The notes beneath the pieces were generated by a model. It searched no databases. It was not told where the DNA came from and saw only the letters and a program-made list of their open reading frames with translations. Positions 40,742 through 50,343 of a stretch of DNA of 57,291 bases are shown here, piece by piece. Each line of letters opens with the position of its first letter. Position 1 is the stretch's first letter. Origin of the DNA: an uncultured Alphaproteobacteria bacterium (GTDB lineage Bacteria; Pseudomonadota; Alphaproteobacteria; Parvibaculales; Parvibaculaceae); contig CAISYL010000214.1 in NCBI GenBank assembly GCA_903889655.1, positions 1-57,291 of the forward strand. The letters run 5' to 3'. The position numbers were made by a program, and so were the translations under genes.

Positions 40742-42121
40742 ATGCTCGATATCTTCGTCACGAAAAAGGATGCCGCCGCGACGCCGGTCTGGCTCGTGCG
40801 CAGCGCCGATCTGAAGGCCTGGCTGGCCGAACATGCCGGTTCCGGCGCCGCCTGGGTCGAGACCTCGGGCTTCAAGGCGGAGGCCGGCAAGGTGCTGCTG
40901 CTGCCGGACGGATCGGGCGGTCTTTCGGGGGCGATCCTCGGCCTCGGCGACGGTTCGGACCCGTTCCTGACCGGCGCGCTCGCGACTGCGCTTCCGGTCC
41001 AGACCTATCGATTTGCCGGTCAGCTCGCCGCGCCGGACAAGGCGGTGCTCGGTTTCGCGCTCGGTACCTACAGCTTCACGCGCTATGGCGGCAAGACGCG
41101 CGAATATCCGCGCCTCGTCCTGCCTGACGGCGTCGATGGCGAAGAGGTGAGCCGCACGGCGCGCGCGATCTTCCTGGTTCGCGACCTCATCAACACGCCG
41201 ACCAACGACATGAGCCCCGCCGATCTCGCCGGCGCCGCGCTCGATGTGGCCCGCGCTCATGAAGCGCAGGCGAGCGTGATCGAAGGCGAAGACCTCATAA
41301 CGCGCAATTACCCGCTGATCCATGCGGTCGGCCGCGCCTCGGCCGTTGCGCCGCGCCTGATCGACTTCACCTGGGGCCGTGCCGATGCGCCGAAGGTGAC
41401 GCTGGTCGGCAAGGGCGTCTGCTTCGATACGGGCGGTCTCGATCTGAAGCCGTCGAGCGCGATGCTGCTGATGAAGAAGGACATGGGCGGCGCCGCCAAT
41501 GTGCTGGCGCTCGCGGCCCTCATCATGGGCGGCAAGCTCGACATCCGGCTCCGGGTGCTGATCCCTGCCGTCGAGAACAGCGTCTCCGGCAACGCCTTCC
41601 GTCCGGGCGACATCCTGAAGAGCCGCAAGGGCCTGACCGTCGAGATCGGCAACACAGATGCAGAAGGCCGCCTCGTGCTCGCCGATGCGCTGGCCGAAGC
41701 CGACACCGAGACGCCGGACATTCTGATCGACATGGCGACGCTCACCGGCGCGGCACGCACTGCGCTCGGCCCGGACCTTCCGCCTTTATATACCGACGAC
41801 GATGCGCTCGCCGTCGAGATTGCGGACGCGGCGACGGCCGAGGCCGATCCGCTCTGGCGCATGCCGCTCTGGCAACCCTATGACGGCTGGATGGACAGCA
41901 AGATCGCCGACGTCAACAATGCGGGCGAAGGCGGCTTTGCCGGGTCGATCACGGCGGCGCTCTTCCTGCGGCGCTTCGTCGGCAATGCAAAGGCCTGGGT
42001 CCATTTCGACGTCTATGGCTGGGCGCCCAAGGCAAAGCCCGGCCGCCCGGTCGGCGGCGAGGCGCAGGCGATCCGCGCTCTGTACGCCGTGCTGAAGCGC
42101 CGCTTCGGCATTCGCGGCTGA
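40742..42121 (+). CDS. Leucyl aminopeptidase family (M17) protein
   Basis: A 459-residue peptidase. The C-terminal catalytic domain has VGKGVCFDTGGLDLK (metal and catalytic Lys region), NTDAEGRLVLADALAEAD (metal-binding motif with the Arg) and MKKDMGGAA. These are the two-zinc ligands of M17 aminopeptidases. It would hydrolyse N-terminal residues from short peptides in the cytoplasm. ATG 40742 (MLDIFVTKK) was chosen over an in-frame TTG at 40730. It is the first gene of a set of three that runs to the NlpC/P60 gene. Confidence 0.93.
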   Translation: MLDIFVTKKDAAATPVWLVRSADLKAWLAEHAGSGAAWVETSGFKAEAGKVLLLPDGSGGLSGAILGLGDGSDPFLTGALATALPVQTYRFAGQLAAPDKAVLGFALGTYSFTRYGGKTREYPRLVLPDGVDGEEVSRTARAIFLVRDLINTPTNDMSPADLAGAALDVARAHEAQASVIEGEDLITRNYPLIHAVGRASAVAPRLIDFTWGRADAPKVTLVGKGVCFDTGGLDLKPSSAMLLMKKDMGGAANVLALAALIMGGKLDIRLRVLIPAVENSVSGNAFRPGDILKSRKGLTVEIGNTDAEGRLVLADALAEADTETPDILIDMATLTGAARTALGPDLPPLYTDDDALAVEIADAATAEADPLWRMPLWQPYDGWMDSKIADVNNAGEGGFAGSITAALFLRRFVGNAKAWVHFDVYGWAPKAKPGRPVGGEAQAIRALYAVLKRRFGIRG

Positions 42122-42217
42122 CCGGCGCCACTGATCGCTTGCCCGGCGCTGCCGTCCCGCTAGACTGAACCGGGACCGAAACGGATGCGGGGCCGTCAGG
42201 CCGGTGGGGAAAAAGCG

Positions 42218-42568
42218 ATGACGCTGGAGTTGAAGCCGGTGCAGGCACTCGCGCTGTGGCAGGACGTGGTCCTGGAAACGGTCCGGCGCGACGGGCCAGA
42301 TCTCTCCTCGCGTCAGCTTGCGATCCTGCTTTCCGTCTATCTGACGCCGCCGCCGCACACCGTGCGCGGTCTTGCCGGTCTCCTCAATGTCTCGAAGCCC
42401 GCGATCACGCGCGCCCTCGACACGCTCGGCCAGCTCGATCTTCTGAAGCGCAAGCGTGACGAGGCAGACCGCCGCAACGTGCTCGTGCAGCGTACCGTCA
42501 AAGGCTCCGTTTTCCTGCGGGACTTCGCCGATCTCGTCACCGACGTGGCGGGGAGGCTCAACGCATGA
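42218..42568 (+). CDS. MarR-like winged-helix regulator
   Basis: A 116-residue protein. It has LSSRQLAILLSVYLTPPPHT, a recognition helix LLNVSKPAITRALDTLGQLD and the wing segment KRKRDEADRRNVLVQRT, which are MarR/HTH hallmarks. ATG 42218 follows GGGGAAAAAGCG. Its stop overlaps the next gene's ATG by 4 bp, so it is translated together with the NlpC/P60 peptidase and probably controls it or the aminopeptidase gene upstream. Confidence 0.85.
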   Translation: MTLELKPVQALALWQDVVLETVRRDGPDLSSRQLAILLSVYLTPPPHTVRGLAGLLNVSKPAITRALDTLGQLDLLKRKRDEADRRNVLVQRTVKGSVFLRDFADLVTDVAGRLNA

Positions 42569-43431
42569 GCCGCGGAAGCGGCCCCGATCGCCGCATCAAT
42601 CCCTATCGCGACGATCTCGCCGCCGCCTATCTGCGTGGCGAGGTGAAGGCGACGCGCTTCGTCGAAGGCGAGGACCGTCAGGTGAAGCTTCCCTGCGTCC
42701 CCTTGCTGCAGCGGCCGGAAGCAGACGCGCCGATGGACACGCAGCTTCTCTTCGGCGAGAGCTTCCGCGTCTACGAGGAAAAGGCAGGCTTTGCCTGGGG
42801 CCAGTCGGCCGGCGACGATTATGTTGGTTATGTCGATGCGAAGGCGCTGGCGCCACGCCCCTATCGCCCGAGCCATGTCGTCGCGGCATTGCGGACCTTC
42901 GTCTATCCGCGCCCCGATCTCAAAAGCCGGCCGGCGACGCCGCTCGGCCTCAACGCCAAGGTCAGGGTCGTCGGCGCGCGGGGCGACTATAGCGAGATCG
43001 AACGCGGCGGCTGGATATTCACCGCCCATCTCGCTCCGGTCGATGCTCATGTGCGCGACTTCGTGTCGGTCGCCGAAGAGCATCTGGGCGTCCCCTATCT
43101 CTGGGGCGGGCGCGAAAGCACTGGCATCGATTGTTCGGGACTGGTGCAGGCCTCGCTCGAACGCGCCGGCATCTCGTCCCTGCGCGATACCGACATGCAG
43201 GAAGCGACGCTGGGCGAACGACTGCCCGAGCCCATCGACTTCACGACGCTTGCGCGCGGCGACCTCGTTTTCTGGAAAGGGCATGTCGGCATCATGGTCG
43301 ACGCCGAGCGCATGGTCCATGCGAGCGGCTTCCAGATGCGCGTCGTGATCGAGCGGCTCGACATCGCCATGTCGCGCATTTCCCGCACGGCGGGCCACGT
43401 GACGTCGATCAGACGTCTGCCCCGCCGCTAG
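42565..43431 (+). CDS. NlpC/P60 family peptidase
   Basis: A 288-residue protein. The N-terminal region contains SH3-like parts (LLFGESFRVYEEKAGFAWGQ, VGYVDAKALAP). The C-terminal NlpC/P60 domain has YLWGGRESTGIDCSGLVQ with the nucleophile Cys, DLVFWKGHVGIMVD with the catalytic His and a third residue in MVHASGF. Such enzymes cut D-glutamyl-type bonds in murein peptides. No signal peptide is seen, so a cytoplasmic role in recycled-murein peptide degradation fits the neighbouring aminopeptidase and the Yej importer. It is the last high-GC gene before the low-GC island. Confidence 0.92.
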   Translation: MSRGSGPDRRINPYRDDLAAAYLRGEVKATRFVEGEDRQVKLPCVPLLQRPEADAPMDTQLLFGESFRVYEEKAGFAWGQSAGDDYVGYVDAKALAPRPYRPSHVVAALRTFVYPRPDLKSRPATPLGLNAKVRVVGARGDYSEIERGGWIFTAHLAPVDAHVRDFVSVAEEHLGVPYLWGGRESTGIDCSGLVQASLERAGISSLRDTDMQEATLGERLPEPIDFTTLARGDLVFWKGHVGIMVDAERMVHASGFQMRVVIERLDIAMSRISRTAGHVTSIRRLPRR

Positions 43432-43520
43432 TTCGTATAGGCCACATCTAAATTTATTGTCGACTATCTATATGTCCTGCTACGGATAATATTCTCGTCA
43501 TGAAACCTCTGAGGGGGACC

Positions 43521-44684
43521 ATGAAGTTTCGGGATTATCAGAGGGCGGCCGCTAAAACGGATCAAAAGCGTGAATTTCGCTTATCTTTGATAGGCTTAAT
43601 TGATGAATCAGGGGATATCGCGCATGAGCTTATGCGGGCGCGGCTGAGTGGGGGTGATGAATGTAGGCTGAAGGACTTCTTGAAAGAGAGGTTGGGAAAT
43701 TTGCTTTGGTATCTTTCTAGTCTTGCCACTCTGCAAAATCTCGAACTTCGAGAAATTGCTTGGCAAAACATCCGAAAAAATTCGATTCGGACTAAAGGTG
43801 CCACCAAAAGAACGCTCGATCAGTTAAAGGTCAGCGACGTCAACGACTTTAGGAAATTTCAGTCGCTTGCTAAAAAGACCTTTATGGCCAGCTCAGATGA
43901 GGTGTTTGTCGCGGGGTTGGCCGGAGAGGTAGGAAGCGTAGCTACGCTTTTCAAAAAGCATCTCCGAGACAAGACGCCGTTTAAACAATTTGGTCCTGAT
44001 CTCGTTTTCGAGCTGGGTGATGTGTTGTGGTATCTGACGGCGATCGCCATACATCATGGCCTTTCATTAGACGACATTGCGACCGAGAATGAACGTCAAA
44101 TTTGGTATCGTTGGATAGAAGAAGGCGAGCGGGTGTCGGATAGCAGGTTCCCTCCTGAAGAGCGATTTCCTCCGAATATGACCATCTCTTTCAAGGAATA
44201 TGGTCGCGAGAAGCCACCTCATGTGAAATTGCAAACAAGCGGTGTCAATATAGGAGATCGCATCAACGACAACAGCGATCTCCCTGATGGATACCGTTTT
44301 CACGACGTGTTTCACTTCGCTTATGGCGCGATACTAGGATGGTCGCCTGTTTTGCGCGAACTCTTGCGGCTAAAGCGAAAGAGTGACAAGGCGGTGGATG
44401 AAAACCAAGACGGCGCACGAGCGAGGATATTGGAGGAGGCGGTCTCTGCATATGTATTTAATCTGGCGCCTGATTCATTCGAAAACACCAGATATATAGA
44501 TGGTCAAATCCTTCGGACCATAAGGGATCTAACAAAAAATCTTGAGGTATCTCTGTGTACAGAAAAAAGATGGGAGAAGGCCATTCTTTCTGGGTTCGAG
44601 GTATTCAGGAGACTGAAGGAAAACGGGGGTGGACAAGTCCTCGTAGATTTTCAGAATGGAAATATTCGCTACCTGAAGAAATGA
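43521..44684 (+). CDS. MazG-like nucleotide pyrophosphohydrolase, duplicated
   Basis: A 387-residue protein from ATG 43521, which has GAGGGGGACC before it; the ATG at 43500 lacks a Shine-Dalgarno. Two MazG-type helix units are visible. In copy 2 (about 126-190), AGLAGEVGSV...LFKK and FELGDVLWYLTAIA hold E136, E164 and D167. Copy 1 (about 20-85) is degenerate (LIDESGDIAHEL, KERLGNLLWYL), with Asn at the last metal position. The C-terminal region (about 245-320) has DLPDGYRFHDVFHFAYGAIL and ARILEEAVSAYVF, another helical unit that I associate with MazG-like proteins. A role in hydrolysing a (d)NTP to the monophosphate is likely but unproved. It is first in the low-GC operon. Confidence 0.8.
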   Translation: MKFRDYQRAAAKTDQKREFRLSLIGLIDESGDIAHELMRARLSGGDECRLKDFLKERLGNLLWYLSSLATLQNLELREIAWQNIRKNSIRTKGATKRTLDQLKVSDVNDFRKFQSLAKKTFMASSDEVFVAGLAGEVGSVATLFKKHLRDKTPFKQFGPDLVFELGDVLWYLTAIAIHHGLSLDDIATENERQIWYRWIEEGERVSDSRFPPEERFPPNMTISFKEYGREKPPHVKLQTSGVNIGDRINDNSDLPDGYRFHDVFHFAYGAILGWSPVLRELLRLKRKSDKAVDENQDGARARILEEAVSAYVFNLAPDSFENTRYIDGQILRTIRDLTKNLEVSLCTEKRWEKAILSGFEVFRRLKENGGGQVLVDFQNGNIRYLKK

Positions 44685-44700
44685 AAGAGGGCGGCGTGAT

Positions 44701-45411
44701 ATGGTGGTGCCTATCGAAGGCTCAAGTTGCCTGGAGGCTTGGCGTCTGGGGTGTTCGGCGCTTCTTGATGGCGGGGGCGAACTCGATAATATAATAACTA
44801 CTATCCTCGATCCGTGTTCCGCCAATCCGCAAGGATATAGGGCCTTCGATCCACGAGGCGTGTCCGGTTCGCCAGACACCGTAGCGCATGTAGCTAGGAC
44901 GATCTTTCCCACAGGAATATGGCAGGTCTCTGCCAACAGGGCGGATCTCTATCATCGCTACAAAGATAGTTTGTTGCGTACACGGCAGCGAGGCTGGGGT
45001 ACTTATTTTGAACGTCTAATTGAGTTCGGCGCGGAGCGGGATAGGCAAAGCGTCAATCAACTTGAGCGAATTATTCAGCGCCTTTCAAAATGGCCGGGGA
45101 ATTATAAGGCTGCCTTTGTGATGCATACATCGGCGGCCCATCTTGACAGCCCATCTCCGAGAGGTGGCCCTTGTCTTCAATACCTTCAGTTAATTGGCGC
45201 TGGTAATGATGTATATGATCTAGTCGCGCTTTATAGGAACCATGATTTTTTCAACAAGACGCTTGGCAATTTCGTCGGCCTTGGGCAGCTGCTAAAATTT
45301 ATCTGCGATGAGACGGGGAAGCATCCGGGCTCACTAATTTGTCATTCGGTCCACGCATTCATAGGGTCCAAAGGGAGCCGCGGCAGATTGCGCTCTCTGG
45401 CGAATTTATAG
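44701..45411 (+). CDS. Thymidylate-synthase-like protein
   Basis: A 236-residue protein. The match to the TS/dCMP-hydroxymethylase fold rests on PCLQYLQ around C158 (nucleophile position), LYRNHDFFNKTLGN with R179, D182 and N190 (corresponding to R-S-x-D and the Asn eight residues later in TS), and HSVHAFI near H218. The N-terminal half has ARTIFPTGIW and RGWGTYFERLIEFG. It is about 30 residues shorter than E. coli TS. It may methylate or hydroxymethylate dUMP or act on a modified pyrimidine; the exact reaction is unknown. The start follows AGAGGGCGGCGTGAT, 16 bp after the MazG-like gene. Confidence 0.7.
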   Translation: MVVPIEGSSCLEAWRLGCSALLDGGGELDNIITTILDPCSANPQGYRAFDPRGVSGSPDTVAHVARTIFPTGIWQVSANRADLYHRYKDSLLRTRQRGWGTYFERLIEFGAERDRQSVNQLERIIQRLSKWPGNYKAAFVMHTSAAHLDSPSPRGGPCLQYLQLIGAGNDVYDLVALYRNHDFFNKTLGNFVGLGQLLKFICDETGKHPGSLICHSVHAFIGSKGSRGRLRSLANL

Positions 45412-45432
45412 TGATCGTGTCATTATAAATAC

Positions 45433-46527
45433 ATGACAGATCAAGAGTTCAAATCGCTTTGTTTGGATATTCATGCGTGTCGAGTATGTCCGCGGATGGA
45501 TGAACGTGCGCGGGTGTTTGGTGAAGCATGCGGGCCGACTGATGCGGCATTGATGTTCGTAGGTGAAGCGCCTGGGCGACTTGGCGCTGACCAAAGTGGC
45601 ATCCCGTTCCATGGGGATCGTTCGGGGCATAATTTCGAAGAGCTTTTGGAATTTGCGCGCATTAGCAGAAATGAGATTTTTGTGACCAATGCAGTGTTGT
45701 GTAATCCTCGCGATGACGGAGGAAGAAATGCACCGCCGACCTCTGTCGAAATAGCGAACTGCACACGGTTTTTGAAAAGACAGATTGATACGATTAAGCC
45801 AAAACTAGTGGTGACGCTGGGAGCAAGTGCCCTGAGATCGGCGGGAATTGTAGAAGGCCATGATCTAACCCTTTCCGATAATGTTCGGACTGCACATGAG
45901 TGGTACGGACGGACATTGGTCCCCCTTTATCATCCTGGCCAACGAGCAATGGTTCATCGTAGTTTTGCCAATCAGAGATCCGACTACGCATTTGTGGCAA
46001 AATGCTTTAGGGGCTTGGAAAAAGTAAGAGGGCAGAGATCACATGCTGCCGGTAAAGAACATATTGCAAATATCGCAGCGCAATTGATAGAGCGCGCCGG
46101 GCGTCTTTCGTATTTTGCACTTCACAAGTTGTTCTATTTGTTCGAATGGAATTTCTTTGAAAGTAACGGTCGTAGATATACAGATGCCTACATCGTTAGA
46201 CAGCTTGACGGCCCATATTGTACGGATCTCCACATTGTGCGGCTACAAAAGCGATTACCAGGTTTGGTCGTGTCCAAGAGCGATAATGAACTCTTTTTGC
46301 AGATGTCTCAAAAATCTCTCGAACTTGAGAAATCTAAGAACGAAGACGTTGAGCAGCAGGCGCAGAAAATATTGGACGAGGTGATGCATAAGTATGGCAG
46401 AAGGAGCAATGCTGAACTAAAGCGGTCGGCATACATGACGAGGCCAATGCGACAAATCCTGCGTCGAGAAAAAAGTGAAGGCCGGAGTCTCTATAATTCA
46501 TCCATCGAGTTTTCTGTGCGGCCGTAA
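45433..46527 (+). CDS. Family-4 uracil-DNA glycosylase fused to a Panacea/DUF4065-like domain
   Basis: A 364-residue protein with two domains. The N-terminal part (1-195) is a family-4/5 UDG. Four cysteines suit the 4Fe-4S cluster (C16 and C19 in ACRVCPRM, C90 in NAVLCNPR, C110 in IANCTRF). GEAPG at 44-48 is the catalytic water/substrate motif, LVVTLGASALRSAG is a typical core segment and LYHPGQR is the final UDG loop. The C-terminal part (about 205-345) has LHKLFYLFEWNFFES, RQLDGPYCTDLHIVRLQKRL and a long helix, resembling Panacea/DUF4065 (SocA-type antitoxin) domains. The fusion is unusual. It lies 21 bp after the TS-like gene. Confidence 0.78.
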   Translation: MTDQEFKSLCLDIHACRVCPRMDERARVFGEACGPTDAALMFVGEAPGRLGADQSGIPFHGDRSGHNFEELLEFARISRNEIFVTNAVLCNPRDDGGRNAPPTSVEIANCTRFLKRQIDTIKPKLVVTLGASALRSAGIVEGHDLTLSDNVRTAHEWYGRTLVPLYHPGQRAMVHRSFANQRSDYAFVAKCFRGLEKVRGQRSHAAGKEHIANIAAQLIERAGRLSYFALHKLFYLFEWNFFESNGRRYTDAYIVRQLDGPYCTDLHIVRLQKRLPGLVVSKSDNELFLQMSQKSLELEKSKNEDVEQQAQKILDEVMHKYGRRSNAELKRSAYMTRPMRQILRREKSEGRSLYNSSIEFSVRP

Positions 46528-46538
46528 GCAAATTCAAA

Positions 46539-48191
46539 TCAGTTCTTGACGACGCCAGCTGGCGCGGTCCGGAGTTCGAAGGCGGCGGCGAGAAGCGCCT
46601 TGGTGTAATCGCTCTGCGGTGTGTCGAAAATCTCGTCCGCCGTGCCGCTTTCGACGACCTTGCCGCCGCGCATCACGATGATGTCGTCGGCAAGGGCACG
46701 CACGACCCTGAGGTCGTGGCTGATGAAGAGATAGGCGAGATCGTGCTTGCGCTGGAGATCGCGCAGCAGATCGACGATCTGCGCCTGCACCGACATGTCG
46801 AGCGCGGACGTAGGCTCGTCCAGCATCACGAAGCGCGGCTTCAGCGCCATCGCGCGCGCGATCGCGATGCGCTGGCGCTGGCCGCCGGAGAATTCATGCG
46901 GATAGCGATCCTGCATGGCGGGATCGAGGCCGACTTCCTCCAGCGCCTCCGAAACCACGGCGCGGCGCTCCCTGGCCGTCATGCCGATCTTCTGGACGAT
47001 CAAACCCTCCTCGACGATCTGGCTGACGGAGAGGCGCGGGGAGAGCGAACCGTAGGGATCCTGAAAGACGATCTGCATATGGCGGCGCAAGGGGCGCAGC
47101 TCTTTCGATTTCAGTCCCTGGATCGGCTGTCCGCGGAAGCGGATGTCGCCCTCGCTCGAAATAAGGCGGAGTAGCGCGAGGCCGAGCGTCGTCTTGCCCG
47201 AACCGGATTCGCCGACGACGCCGATGGTGCGGCCTTCGCGGACGTTGATCGAAACGTCGTCGACCGCCTTGACGTAACCGACGGTCTTTCTGAGGAAGCC
47301 CTTCCTGATCGGGAACCAGACCTTGAGCCGGTCGGCTTCCATGATGAGCGCGCCGTCCTTCGGCGCGCCGAGCGCGCGGCCCTTGGGTTCGGAAGCGAGG
47401 AGACGTTGCGTATAGGCGTGCTTCGGATGGGTGAAGACTTCTTCGGTTGCCCCATGCTCGACGATCTCGCCCTTGGTCATCACGAAGATGCGGTCGGCCA
47501 TCTTGCGCACGATGCCGAGGTCGTGGGTGATGAGCAGAAGTGCCATGCCCATCTCGCGCTTAAGATCCTTGAGGAGTTCGAGGATCTGCGCCTGCACGGT
47601 GACGTCGAGTGCCGTCGTCGGCTCGTCGGCGATCAGAAGGTCCGGCTCGTTCGCAAGCGCCATCGCGATCATCACGCGCTGGCGCTGGCCGCCGGACAAT
47701 TCATGCGGATAGGCGCCGAGACGGGTTTCCGGATCTGGAATGCCGACTTTTTTCAGAAGCTCGATGACGCGCGCCCGCACCGCCGCACCGCGCAAGCCCT
47801 TGTGGAGTTCCAGCACTTCGCCGACCTGCCGCTCGATCGTATGCAGCGGGTTGAGCGAGGTCATGGGCTCCTGAAAGACCATCGTGATCCGGTTGCCGCG
47901 CACCTTGCGCAGACGTGCCTCGCTGGCGCCGACGAGGTTCTCTCCCTCGAAGATGATCTCGCCCGAAGGATGCGAGGCTTGCGGATAGGGAAGAAGCTGC
48001 AGGATCGACAAGGCCGACACGGATTTGCCCGAGCCGGATTCGCCGACCAGCGCGACGGTCTCGCCCGGCTTGATGTCGAACGAGATACGGTCGACGGCAA
48101 GCACCTCCTGCCCGTCCGAGCGGAAGGCGACGGAGAGGTTCCTGACCTCGACGAGAGGTTTCGTCGCGTTCATCGCAGCATCCTGGCTCAT
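46539..48191 (-). CDS. yejF: Peptide ABC importer ATPase, two nucleotide-binding domains (YejF)
   Basis: A 550-residue protein with two complete ATPase domains. The first has Walker [15 protein letters not shown], signature [15 protein letters not shown] and Walker [13 protein letters not shown]. The second has [32 protein letters not shown] and [12 protein letters not shown]. It energises YejB/YejE. The ATG overlaps the yejE stop by 4 bp; an internal ATG at 48173 is possible. It is the last gene of the operon, and its 3' end borders the low-GC island. Confidence 0.93.
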
Positions 48192-49237
48192 TCGAGCACC
48201 TTGCGCGGATCGAAGGCGTCGCGCACGGCCTCGCCGATGAAGATCAGCAGGCTCAGCATGATCGCGATGGAAAAGAAGCCGGTGAGGCCGAGCCAGGGCG
48301 CTTGCAGATTGGCCTTGCCCTGCGCCAGCAATTCGCCGAGCGAGGCCGATCCCGGCGGTAGGCCGAAGCCGAGAAAATCGAGCGAGGTCAGCGTCGTGAT
48401 CGAGGAATTGAGGATGAAGGGCATGAAGGTGATGGTCGCGACCATCGCATTCGGCAGCAGATGCTTGAAGATGATGACGCCGTCGCTGAGCCCCAGCGCG
48501 CGCGCCGCCTTCACATATTCGAAATTGCGCCCGCGCAGGAATTCCGCGCGCACGAGGCCGACCAGCGACGTCCAGTGGAAGAGCAGAAGGATACCGAGCA
48601 ACAGCCAGAAACTCGGCTCGAACATCGCCGCGAGAATGATGAGGAGGTAGAGCGTCGGCACGCTGGTCCAGATCTCGATGAAGCGCTGGAAGAGCAGGTC
48701 CGTCCAGCCGCCGAAGTAACCCTGCACCGCGCCGGCCGCGATGCCGATCACCGACGAGGCGGCGGCGAGAATGAGGCCGAAGAGAACCGAGATGCGGAAC
48801 CCGTAGATCAGCCGCGCCGCGACGTCGCGGCCCTGATCGTCGGTGCCGAGCCAGTTCTCGGAGGAAGGCGGCGCGGGCGCCGGCACCGGCAGATTGAGGT
48901 TGATGGTGCGGTAGTCGTAATGGATCAGCGGCCAGACGATGTGCCCGCCCGCATCGCCGATCAGCTTGACGACGTAGGGATCGCGATAATCTGCCTCCGT
49001 CTGGAACTCGCCGCCGAAAGTCGTTTCGGGATAGGACGCGAACACGGGCGCATAGAGGCCGCCCTTGAAGGTGACGAGGAGCGGCCGGTCGTTGGCGATG
49101 AATTCGGCGAAGAGCGAAATGAAGAAGAGCGCGAGAAAGAGCCAGAGGCTCCAGTAGCCGCGCCTGTTCGCCTTGAAATTCCGCCATCGCCGCTTGTTGA
49201 TGGGGCTCAACGCGAAGCGTCGTCCGAACAATGCCAC
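48188..49237 (-). CDS. yejE: Peptide ABC importer permease (YejE)
   Basis: A 349-residue permease with a GTG start. The N-terminal membrane helix is WSLWLFLALFFISLFAEFIA. The binding-protein-dependent transport motif is RGRNFEYVKAARALGLSDGV, and the segment with NWLGTDDQGRDVAARLIYG is typical of DppC-like permeases. The large periplasmic loop after the first helix is a YejE feature. It pairs with YejB and overlaps yejF. Confidence 0.93.
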   Translation of the reverse strand: MALFGRRFALSPINKRRWRNFKANRRGYWSLWLFLALFFISLFAEFIANDRPLLVTFKGGLYAPVFASYPETTFGGEFQTEADYRDPYVVKLIGDAGGHIVWPLIHYDYRTINLNLPVPAPAPPSSENWLGTDDQGRDVAARLIYGFRISVLFGLILAAASSVIGIAAGAVQGYFGGWTDLLFQRFIEIWTSVPTLYLLIILAAMFEPSFWLLLGILLLFHWTSLVGLVRAEFLRGRNFEYVKAARALGLSDGVIIFKHLLPNAMVATITFMPFILNSSITTLTSLDFLGFGLPPGSASLGELLAQGKANLQAPWLGLTGFFSIAIMLSLLIFIGEAVRDAFDPRKVLE

Positions 49238-49239
49238 CC

Positions 49240-50343
49240 TCAGACCTCCCGCGTCTCGAAGTCGATGCGCGGATCGACCCAGGTATAGGTGAGGTCGGAA
49301 ATCAGCGCGACGACAAGGCCGAGCAGGCCGAAGACGTAGAGCGTCGCGAAGACGACGGGATAATCGCGGTTGACGATGGACTCGTAGGAGAGGAGGCCGA
49401 GCCCGTCGAGCGAGAAGATCGTTTCGATCAGGATCGAGCCCGAGAAGAAGGCGCCGATGAAAGCGCCGGGAAAGCCCGCGATGACGATCAGCATCGCGTT
49501 GCGGAAGACGTGTCCATAGAGCACCTGCTGCTCGGTGAGGCCCTTGGCGCGCGCCGTCGTCACATATTGCTTGCGGATTTCATCGAGGAAGGAATTTTTT
49601 GTGAGAAGCGTCGTGGTTGCAAAGCCGCCGATGGTCATCGAGGCGACAGGCAGCACGATATGCCAGAGATAGTCGAGCGCCTTGCCGCCAAGAGAAAGCT
49701 CCGACCAGTTGTCGGAGGTGAGGCCGCGCAAGGGGAATATCTGCCAGTAGGAGCCGCCGGCAAAGAGCACGATCAGGAAGATCGCGAAGAGAAAGCCGGG
49801 GATCGCATAGCCGACGATGATGACGCCGCTGGTCCAGAGGTCGAAACGCGAGCCGTCCTCGACCGCCTTCTTGATGCCGAGCGGAATGGAGATGAGATAA
49901 GTCAGCAGCGTCGTCCAGAGCCCGAGCGAGATCGAGACCGGCATTTTTTCGAGGATCAGGTCGAGCACGCCCGTGTCGCGGAAATAGCTCTTGCCGAAAT
50001 CGAAGCGGGAATAATCCCAGATCATCTTGCCGAAACGCACATACCAGGGCTTGTCGAAGCCGAACTGCACTTCGAGCTGCTTGATGAATTCGGGATCGAG
50101 CCCGCGCGCGCCGCGATACTTGCTGTTGAGGGCGGCGTCCGCCGCGCCTCCGGCGCCTTGCGAAAAGTCGCTTCCGCCGCCGCCGATGCGCGCCGTTGCC
50201 GAGACATCGGTGCCGGAAAGCTTTGCCACGATCTGCTCGATCGGTCCACCCGGCGCGAACTGCACGATGACGAAGCTGATGAACATGATGCCGAGAATGG
50301 TCGGGATCATCAGCAATATGCGCCGCGCGATATAGGCTCCCAT
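49240..50343 (-). CDS. yejB: Peptide ABC importer permease (YejB)
   Basis: A 367-residue permease. It begins with [20 protein letters not shown] and [13 protein letters not shown], the DppB-like opening. An insertion with Gly/Ala-rich [17 protein letters not shown] is typical of YejB. The EAA loop is [20 protein letters not shown]. It partners YejE in the inner membrane. The ATG follows the SBP gene stop by 2 bp, and the stop is 2 bp before the yejE start. Confidence 0.93.

Follow-up and report, generated by a model that had tools for sequence, protein, structure and literature searches.

A thymidylate-synthase-like protein in a small inserted cassette with MazG_C and a uracil-DNA glycosylase-Panacea fusion: a candidate mobile nucleotide-modification module

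Introduction

Enzymes of the thymidylate synthase (TS) fold and defence systems that alter nucleotides are both known kinds, and several described members come close to the protein considered here, a TS-like protein of 236 residues encoded on the forward strand (44701..45411, + strand, ATG start) of the window, that is, the whole stretch of 57,291 nucleotides that was analysed. With the archaeal or methanogen TSs (TIGR03283) and with ThyA (PF00303) it is alike in fold, catalytic cysteine, asparagine and order of motifs, but it scores under the curated cut-offs of these models and has no Arg-Arg pair; furthermore, the folate aspartate is lost in 27 of the 31 members of the TS-like family, and the genes of this family sit in mobile cassettes. 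The CMP/dCMP/dUMP hydroxymethylases, a group that includes T4 gp42 and the SPO1-type enzymes, have the TS fold in common with it (Z 15.8 for MilA), whereas identity to MilA is about 14% and the TS-like family keeps an asparagine at the base-reading position. The closest match in fold is AfhB (PDB 9iqc and 9iqu; Z 17), likewise a short chain (217-234 residues), but identity is 13-14%, and AfhB is known here from its entry titles only, as a TS-fold FAD-dependent dCMP hydroxylase.

On the side of defence, the systems reported with DefensePredictor contain the same kinds of domains (TS, dNMP kinase, 5-hmdU kinase, NMAD, MazG-C and UDG), the likeness being one of domain type (PMC13092281). That paper counts TS and 5-hydroxymethyluracil kinase among the domains whose presence in anti-phage systems of E. 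coli is newly validated, places MazG, MazG-C (termed a predicted nucleotide kinase) and UDG among the parts of predicted defence systems, and credits an earlier bioinformatic study with predicting several such domains in defence (PMC13092281). In contrast to the loci described below, the terms 'acyl carrier' and 'ImmA' each have 0 occurrences in its main text. The toxin-antitoxin systems built on Panacea (DUF4065/SocA) have this domain in common with the cassette in the window, and Panacea is described as an antitoxin domain for many toxins (PMC8832971); in the window, however, it is fused behind a uracil-DNA glycosylase (UDG), as part of a three-gene operon. Finally, 5hmdU in phage DNA is phosphorylated by a 5hmdU DNA kinase (PMC6449724). 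A search confined to one literature library returned no published description of the whole gene set.

We propose, with a probability of roughly one half, that the cassette belongs, as a minimal version, to a mobile family of nucleotide-modification modules with a probably anti-phage role. New, as far as the searches reach, are the mutually exclusive base-acting partners, the operon of the relatives with its ACP, ImmA and chagasin-papain components, and the minimal UDG-Panacea form, found at two loci. It is the family, more than this one gene, that is of interest.

The inserted cassette and its site

An inserted segment of 3,112 bases (43436..46547, no strand assigned) carries three genes, all on the + strand and close together, with the TS-like gene in the middle; the order is MazG-MazG_C, TS-like, UDG-Panacea. 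The GC content of the segment is 0.479, as against a mean of 0.639 and a minimum of 0.596 in all 957 overlapping stretches of equal length outside it. The site is empty in each of the three sister genomes compared (L076, L077 and L078, picked from 20 others for the most similar flanking gene): when positions 42000-50000 were compared by blastn with the corresponding same-genus stretches, the two flanking genes adjoined, the alignment stopping at 43435 and restarting at 46548. The flanks are 1 base apart in L076 and L077; in L078, where the alignment stops some bases earlier, the distance is 24 bases. The earlier note had called the cassette foreign, and both the GC content and the clean empty site bear this out. 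Its neighbours are an NlpC/P60 gene on one side and, by eye, an ABC-transporter-like gene on the other, and it stands isolated between genes of housekeeping appearance, with no defence island around it. There is no integrase or transposase among its three genes, and the best direct repeat found at the insert ends has 5 bases, which was taken as chance. None of the three proteins matches a PADLOC model, and a DNA-level search of E. coli genomes gave no match to the cassette.

The earlier note had also expected the host to have its own thyA. The genome does contain a canonical thyA, visible only in fragments at the ends of contigs (C9, C186, C92 and C163; L001-L004). With the cassette foreign and canonical thyA elsewhere, the suggestion of a different substrate or product stands in part, in that the TS-like protein is probably not the housekeeping enzyme. 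The thyA pieces form two sets, which perhaps represent two copies or a strain mixture.

The first gene (43500..44684, + strand) encodes a protein of 394 residues with two copies of MazG (PF03819, E=7.4e-6, over the cut-off) and a MazG_C domain (PF18722, E=6.7e-66). The first MazG copy is degenerate by eye; the second, at residues 136-195 (43905..44084, + strand), is the best stretch for PF03819, and MazG_C follows at residues 213-392 (44136..44675, + strand). This genome has a single MazG_C; across its class the domain is present in 13 of 385 genomes (this one included), and it is present in 0 of 14 controls. The structure model of MazG-MazG_C is poor (pTM 0.51), and a Foldseek search with this poor model returned nothing at E <= 0.001.

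The third gene (45433..46527, + strand) encodes 364 residues, namely a UDG nearest to family 4 (PF03167, E=4.4e-27; residues 34-177, 45532..45963, + strand) fused to a SocA/Panacea domain (PF13274, E=1.5e-5, 26.3 bits against a cut-off of 25.7; residues 230-331, 46120..46425, + strand). The glycosylase scores under the cut-offs of the type-4 UDG and UdgX models. It aligns with PDB 1ui0 (E=1.3e-20) at four cysteines and at the HP positions, and we take the four cysteines to be ligands of an Fe-S cluster. A metagenome-assembled genome (locus L005) has this set of three genes as well, in identical order; its TS-like protein is 45-47% identical and its MazG_C protein 41%, and its UDG is again fused to Panacea (E=4.8e-9, 37.6 bits).

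A Panacea domain is fused to the glycosylase in both members of this architecture that were found (the window and L005), as might be expected if the cassette were a toxin-antitoxin system, with Panacea as the antitoxin, either fused to a toxic UDG or guarding it, and with the TS-like and MazG_C proteins as a sensor or as the nucleotide supply of the toxin. Panacea domains do neutralise very diverse toxins (PMC8832971), but the word 'glycosylase' has 0 occurrences in the main text of that source, and the invariant cysteine and asparagine of the TS-like family suggest catalysis over sensing, which makes this reading unlikely. In the nucleotide-modification module that we prefer, the Panacea domain would hold the glycosylase in check until infection.

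Relatives and their gene company

Partner genes were counted at 33 further loci, with the window and L005 left aside, as presence in the fetched stretch (8-17 kb). No partner model drew its seeds from more than 16 of the 33 loci, and seed rows count by construction, as does the 5-hmdU kinase of L083, a locus that came from the search for that kinase; L031, an orphan TS-like piece, is scored as a miss in every count. On this basis, HTH and ImmA/IrrE genes are each present at 32/33 loci, ACP-like genes at 28/33 and MazG_C at 27/33. A UDG is found at 14/33 and a 5-hmdU kinase (PF18723) at 16/33; the two never occur together, and three loci have neither. MazG_C is accompanied by one or the other at 25 of the 33 loci, and a TS-like gene, MazG_C and a base-acting enzyme are likewise combined in one locus in the window and in L005, with a UDG of a different branch. 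Less frequent are a papain-like C1 peptidase (19/33), AcpS (8/33), dCTP deaminase (7/33) and a second, long TS (PF00303; 4/33), which stands together with the kinase and ACP in L028 and L082. Pfam assigns this long TS to PF00303 only, and to label it a hydroxymethylase would be a guess.

The C1 peptidase is present at 14/14 UDG loci and at 5/16 kinase loci. Where it is present, the ImmA protein carries a chagasin-type domain in 4/4 cases tested (L007, L020, L022 and L082, two of them barely over the cut-off), and where it is absent the domain was found in 0/3 (L009, L028 and L033). The ImmA/IrrE-chagasin fusion and the adjoining C1 peptidase would, judging from their domains, form a protease/inhibitor pair built into the TS-like loci. 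The Q, C, H and N positions are kept throughout the ten C1 seed proteins, save for one row, with a short annotated start, in which the first two are missing. The ACP call is based on a [D/N]-S motif that is kept in 16/16 seed proteins; Pfam PP-binding is over its cut-off only in L009 and L026, under it in L033, L022, L029 and L034, and without a match in L006, L008 and L082. In L022 (6300-7999), L007 (5270-7017) and L082 (3068-4747) the ImmA/IrrE-chagasin gene lies directly before that of the peptidase.

With models made from the plasmid loci, neither the 57-kb window nor L005 showed any of the ACP, HTH, ImmA and C1 genes of the relatives. Since ACP-like, HTH and ImmA/IrrE genes were not found there, these two loci are called a third, minimal architecture, and because the window has none of the four as detected by these models, its cassette may be a remnant or may be regulated in another way. 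The glycosylases also differ. Specifically, the UDG model of the relatives misses the window UDG at E <= 0.001 and reaches only 16 bits in L005, whereas the Pfam UDG model matches all glycosylases tested, the window's and the relatives' alike; the glycosylases of the window and L005 form a branch other than that of the relatives. The two branches may not share a substrate, and a shared role would follow from their position and superfamily.

The company kept by the relatives bears on a second alternative, in which the TS-like protein would make a 5-hydroxymethyl (or similar) pyrimidine for the DNA of the host or of the mobile element, as in hypermodified phages, while the UDG would edit unmodified uracil. 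The frequency of the 5-hmdU kinase (16/33), the second long TS (4/33) and the structural match to MilA (Z 15.8) are in its favour, and phage pathways are described as passing via 5hmdU and a 5hmdU DNA kinase (PMC6449724). However, the three genes of the window cassette include no polymerase, endonuclease or methyltransferase, and a chromosome-wide base replacement driven by a plasmid gene seems unlikely in itself. The asparagine at position 190, where an aspartate would be expected, is moreover against cytosine hydroxymethylation, and we consider the alternative improbable. For a module directed at the DNA of phages, as preferred here, the same kinase would act on the kind of base on which the UDG acts at other loci.

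The TS-like protein and its family

The NCBIfam model TIGR03283 (methanogen TS) matches the window protein with E=4e-17 and 62.4 bits, under its cut-off of 174.55, and PF00303 with E=0.035 and 13.7 bits, under its cut-off of 24.3 bits. An AlphaFold model of the protein (pLDDT 79, pTM 0.83, with six aligned sequences as input) retrieved TSs with Foldseek from E=2.9e-9 upward, the match covering nearly the whole length, and VIA with the same model gave Z 13-17 to TS-fold proteins. The top two rows of VIA are phage AfhB, 9iqc (Z 17.2, 198 residues) and 9iqu (Z 17.1, 194 residues), at an rmsd of 3.1-3.2 A, followed by MilA (rmsd 3.3, 200 residues), whereas the TSs lie at Z about 13-14 over about 190-199 residues. 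A structural alignment with TS had been proposed as a check in the earlier note, and the predicted structure is TS-like by both programs; the window protein is therefore assigned to the TS fold on the strength of this model.

The open reading frame and its four key residues, read directly from the codons, are as the earlier note had them: C158, the TS-type catalytic cysteine (TGT, 45172..45174), R179 at the TS phosphate arginine position (AGG, 45235..45237), D182 at the folate aspartate position (GAT, 45244..45246) and N190 at the uracil-reading asparagine position (AAT, 45268..45270), all on the + strand. A 21-member profile alignment places them opposite the Cys, Arg, Asp and Asn of solved TSs, which we take to be C146, R166, D169 and N177 of the E. 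coli enzyme; the phosphate-binding arginines of TS are, in the same numbering, presumably R166 plus the R126'-R127' pair. That the four residues would be grouped in one pocket follows from the fold match alone. In TS-fold enzymes, an asparagine at the base-reading position goes with uracil and an aspartate with cytosine.

The family alignment comprises 31 members, namely the window protein with 30 relatives, which fall into 29 clusters at 80% identity. Invariant in all of them are C158 and N190, together with G189, Y102, R105, G100, T67, F69 and P70, whereas R179 is kept in 22/31 and D182 in four only (the window, L005, L008 and L082). The position of the Arg-Arg phosphate pair of TS reads NYK in the window; the aligned pair is intact in 5/31 members, all five without R179, so that R179 and the pair are found together in 0/31 (in L024 an Arg-Arg stands a few residues off the aligned position, and an alignment error is possible there). 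The claim that the catalytic framework is retained is right in that the four residues align with TS positions and the cysteine and asparagine are invariant, but it is too strong as regards D182 and the pair that the window lacks. If the alignment is right here, one half of the TS phosphate site has gone in one lineage and the other half in a second.

Because C158 and N190 are invariant, D182 is kept in so few and no member has both R179 and the Arg-Arg pair, the TS-like proteins are a separate TS-fold family and not decayed thyA genes. A degenerate thyA or pseudogene was considered and rejected, given the intact reading frame, the homologue in the same gene order in L005 and the invariant Cys and Asn of the family. 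The partial loss of the phosphate site and the loss of the folate aspartate in most members would then indicate that the substrate or the cofactor has changed, while the asparagine continues to read uracil. The earlier note had thought of a cytosine substrate as well, as for dCMP hydroxymethylase; this is the weaker half of the guess, since Asn190 in 31/31 argues for uracil.

In a tree of the TS-like proteins, four partner labels need 3 changes, which is the minimum possible, as against 13.1 in shuffles. The window and L005 form one fully supported branch (100/100), which joins the side of the UDG/C1 loci with a support of 92/93, short of the starred level of the tool. That side also includes three kinase loci, and the kinase loci alone do not make a single clade.

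The loss of the folate aspartate (27/31), taken with the rank of AfhB above MilA and the TSs, raises the possibility of a TS-fold enzyme that works without folate, for instance a flavin-dependent 5-hydroxylase like phage AfhB, oxidising C5 of a pyrimidine nucleotide. The identity of only 13-14%, the absence of AfhB from the list of 52 PDB sequences that the family profile gave at E <= 10, the D182 that the window itself retains and the N190 that favours uracil all speak against it, and we would not give it much credence. Weaker still is the idea of a metabolic spare, an archaeal-type TS making dTMP with folate while MazG cleans the pool and UDG repairs as housekeeping enzymes, for although TIGR03283 matches 21/21 members of alignment A1 at E <= 0.01, the window retains R179 and D182, and MazG and UDG are known in just these roles, the best of the 21 scores is the window's own 62.4 bits, far from the cut-off, the Arg-Arg pair is gone in the window and nowhere joined to R179, a canonical thyA is present (in pieces), the cassette is rare and inserted, and the 5-hmdU kinase, papain-like peptidase and ACP of the relatives are unneeded for a supply of dTMP.

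Proposed function

The best clue to the function of the TS-like protein is its neighbours, MazG_C and UDG-Panacea, together with their equivalents elsewhere; the earlier note made no use of them. As a nucleotide-modification module, the cassette might work as follows. MazG-MazG_C would take pyrophosphate off a deoxyuridine-type triphosphate and leave the monophosphate. Cys158 of the TS-like protein would attack C6 of the uracil ring, as in TS, and the enzyme would alter or exchange the group at C5, probably via the same covalent-adduct chemistry, to a product other than ordinary dTMP. The target of the glycosylase would then be uracil, or else the altered base, in DNA, above all in that of a phage. 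We infer what the substrate and product are, in which sequence the steps follow, that Panacea restrains the glycosylase and that the module protects against phages.

The relatives help to narrow down the base. Because UDG and 5-hmdU kinase exclude each other, they suggest action on the same kind of base, uracil or a 5-substituted uracil, and this either-or, together with the invariant asparagine, is mainly why uracil is preferred over cytosine hydroxymethylation. The dCTP deaminase (7/33) and the second TS (4/33) would fit a supply line toward a modified deoxyuridine.

A more specific scheme, which is tentative and to be rated well below even odds, is an immunity that makes and breaks: a 5-substituted deoxyuridine would be made and would enter replicating phage DNA or act as a signal, and from it the glycosylase or the 5-hmdU kinase would produce a lesion or an active signal. 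These two enzymes would stand in for each other at the final step, as would the TS-like protein and Nmad2 at the step that writes the base, and the output would come from the papain-like peptidase with chagasin-ImmA or from TIR. For the relatives, the transferred group could possibly be tethered to the ACP, and the precursor could be derived from dCTP via dCTP deaminase and MazG_C.

If the proposal is right, one of the most studied enzyme folds now serves within a mobile immune module. That a locus has either a UDG or a 5-hmdU kinase, and that Nmad2 can replace the TS-like protein, makes the role of the MazG_C, Nmad2 and TS-like proteins testable, and the three-gene operon is small enough for cloning whole.

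Nmad2 and defence genes in the neighbourhood

Within the class, MazG_C stands without a TS-like gene at 9 of 15 places. Seven of these nine adjoin Nmad2, six of the seven with a TIR gene; as for the other two, one ends at a contig edge and one is perhaps the continuation of locus L061 across a contig break. Among plasmids, 14 records have MazG_C and no TS-like match, three of which were examined (L084, L086 and L087). The TIR of L084 is of the ThsB type known from Thoeris (model E=2.8e-51); one of the other two loci has CBASS phospholipase and TIR genes, the other an LmuB-like ATPase beside a SIR2-annotated gene. A second architecture can be recognised, in which Nmad2, MazG_C and UDG or 5-hmdU kinase, mostly with TIR, stand together without the TS-like gene (L084 4296-7826, L087 1093-4660, L103-L105 and L107-L110).

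Genes annotated as defence lie near the TS-like gene in five cases (Shedu, restriction endonuclease, SIR2/ATPase or caspase). PADLOC bears out SduA in L024 and the LmuB-like ATPase in L030, and the ImmA protein of L022 matches its capP model (E=4.8e-15). At 1e-5 it gave no match for the neighbours named SIR2 (L086) or caspase (L023), and it gave none to the MazG_C, UDG, C1, ACP, kinase and TS-like proteins of the relatives that were tested. The swap of TS-like protein and Nmad2 near defence genes may point to immunity.

Distribution

The TS-like gene was found in 23 of 72,556 plasmid records, 20 of which fall among the 34 records of that collection with MazG_C. Records H4-H7 were left out because in identity and coverage they hardly differ from H3, and L079 and L081 duplicate L034 and L033. 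It occurs in 6/385 genomes of the same class, the window's own included (7/385 matched; G222, L018, was dropped by eye as a chance match within the frame of another protein), and in 4/398 genomes across the phylum (G000, G646, G672 and G457), again counting its own. The phylum scan had matched 20/398, and 16 were dropped as another TS family, three of them confirmed as a different TS fused to PterinBD-DUF4346 and 13 judged by frame length and partial match only. A further scan with alignment A4 confirmed 0 of 37 candidate stretches. In the collections searched, the hosts are thus plasmids of proteobacteria, actinobacteria, cyanobacteria and a haloarchaeon, phage-like contigs (four from IMG/VR) and proteobacterial genome contigs. 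An origin as a phage gene was considered and rejected: tblastn against 50,697 phage records gave no match, either with the window protein as query (E <= 0.01) or with two of the relatives (E <= 0.001). A search of the window's own genome for 5-hmdU kinase and Nmad2 gave no match, but the controls likewise matched nowhere.

The TS-PterinBD-DUF4346 proteins are another divergent TS family, three having been checked by Pfam. They are frames of ~490-790 residues with a TS domain and a C-terminal PterinBD-DUF4346, found in several families of the phylum (L039-L055; e.g. L066 5489-7000).

There are 20 plasmid records with the 5-hmdU kinase, eight of them among the 23 TS-like records and L083 a further one; in L085 the kinase stands without any other part of the module. 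A phage-like stretch (L082 2317-7725) has ACP-like, HTH, ImmA-chagasin, C1, TS-like, second long TS (PF00303) and 5-hmdU kinase genes in a row. Cargo genes often sit between terminase and portal genes, and in two prophage-like loci (L034 4277-7505 and L080 3507-6732) a compact ACP-like/HTH/ImmA/TS-like/MazG_C set lies between genes that are, by eye, terminase- and portal-like.
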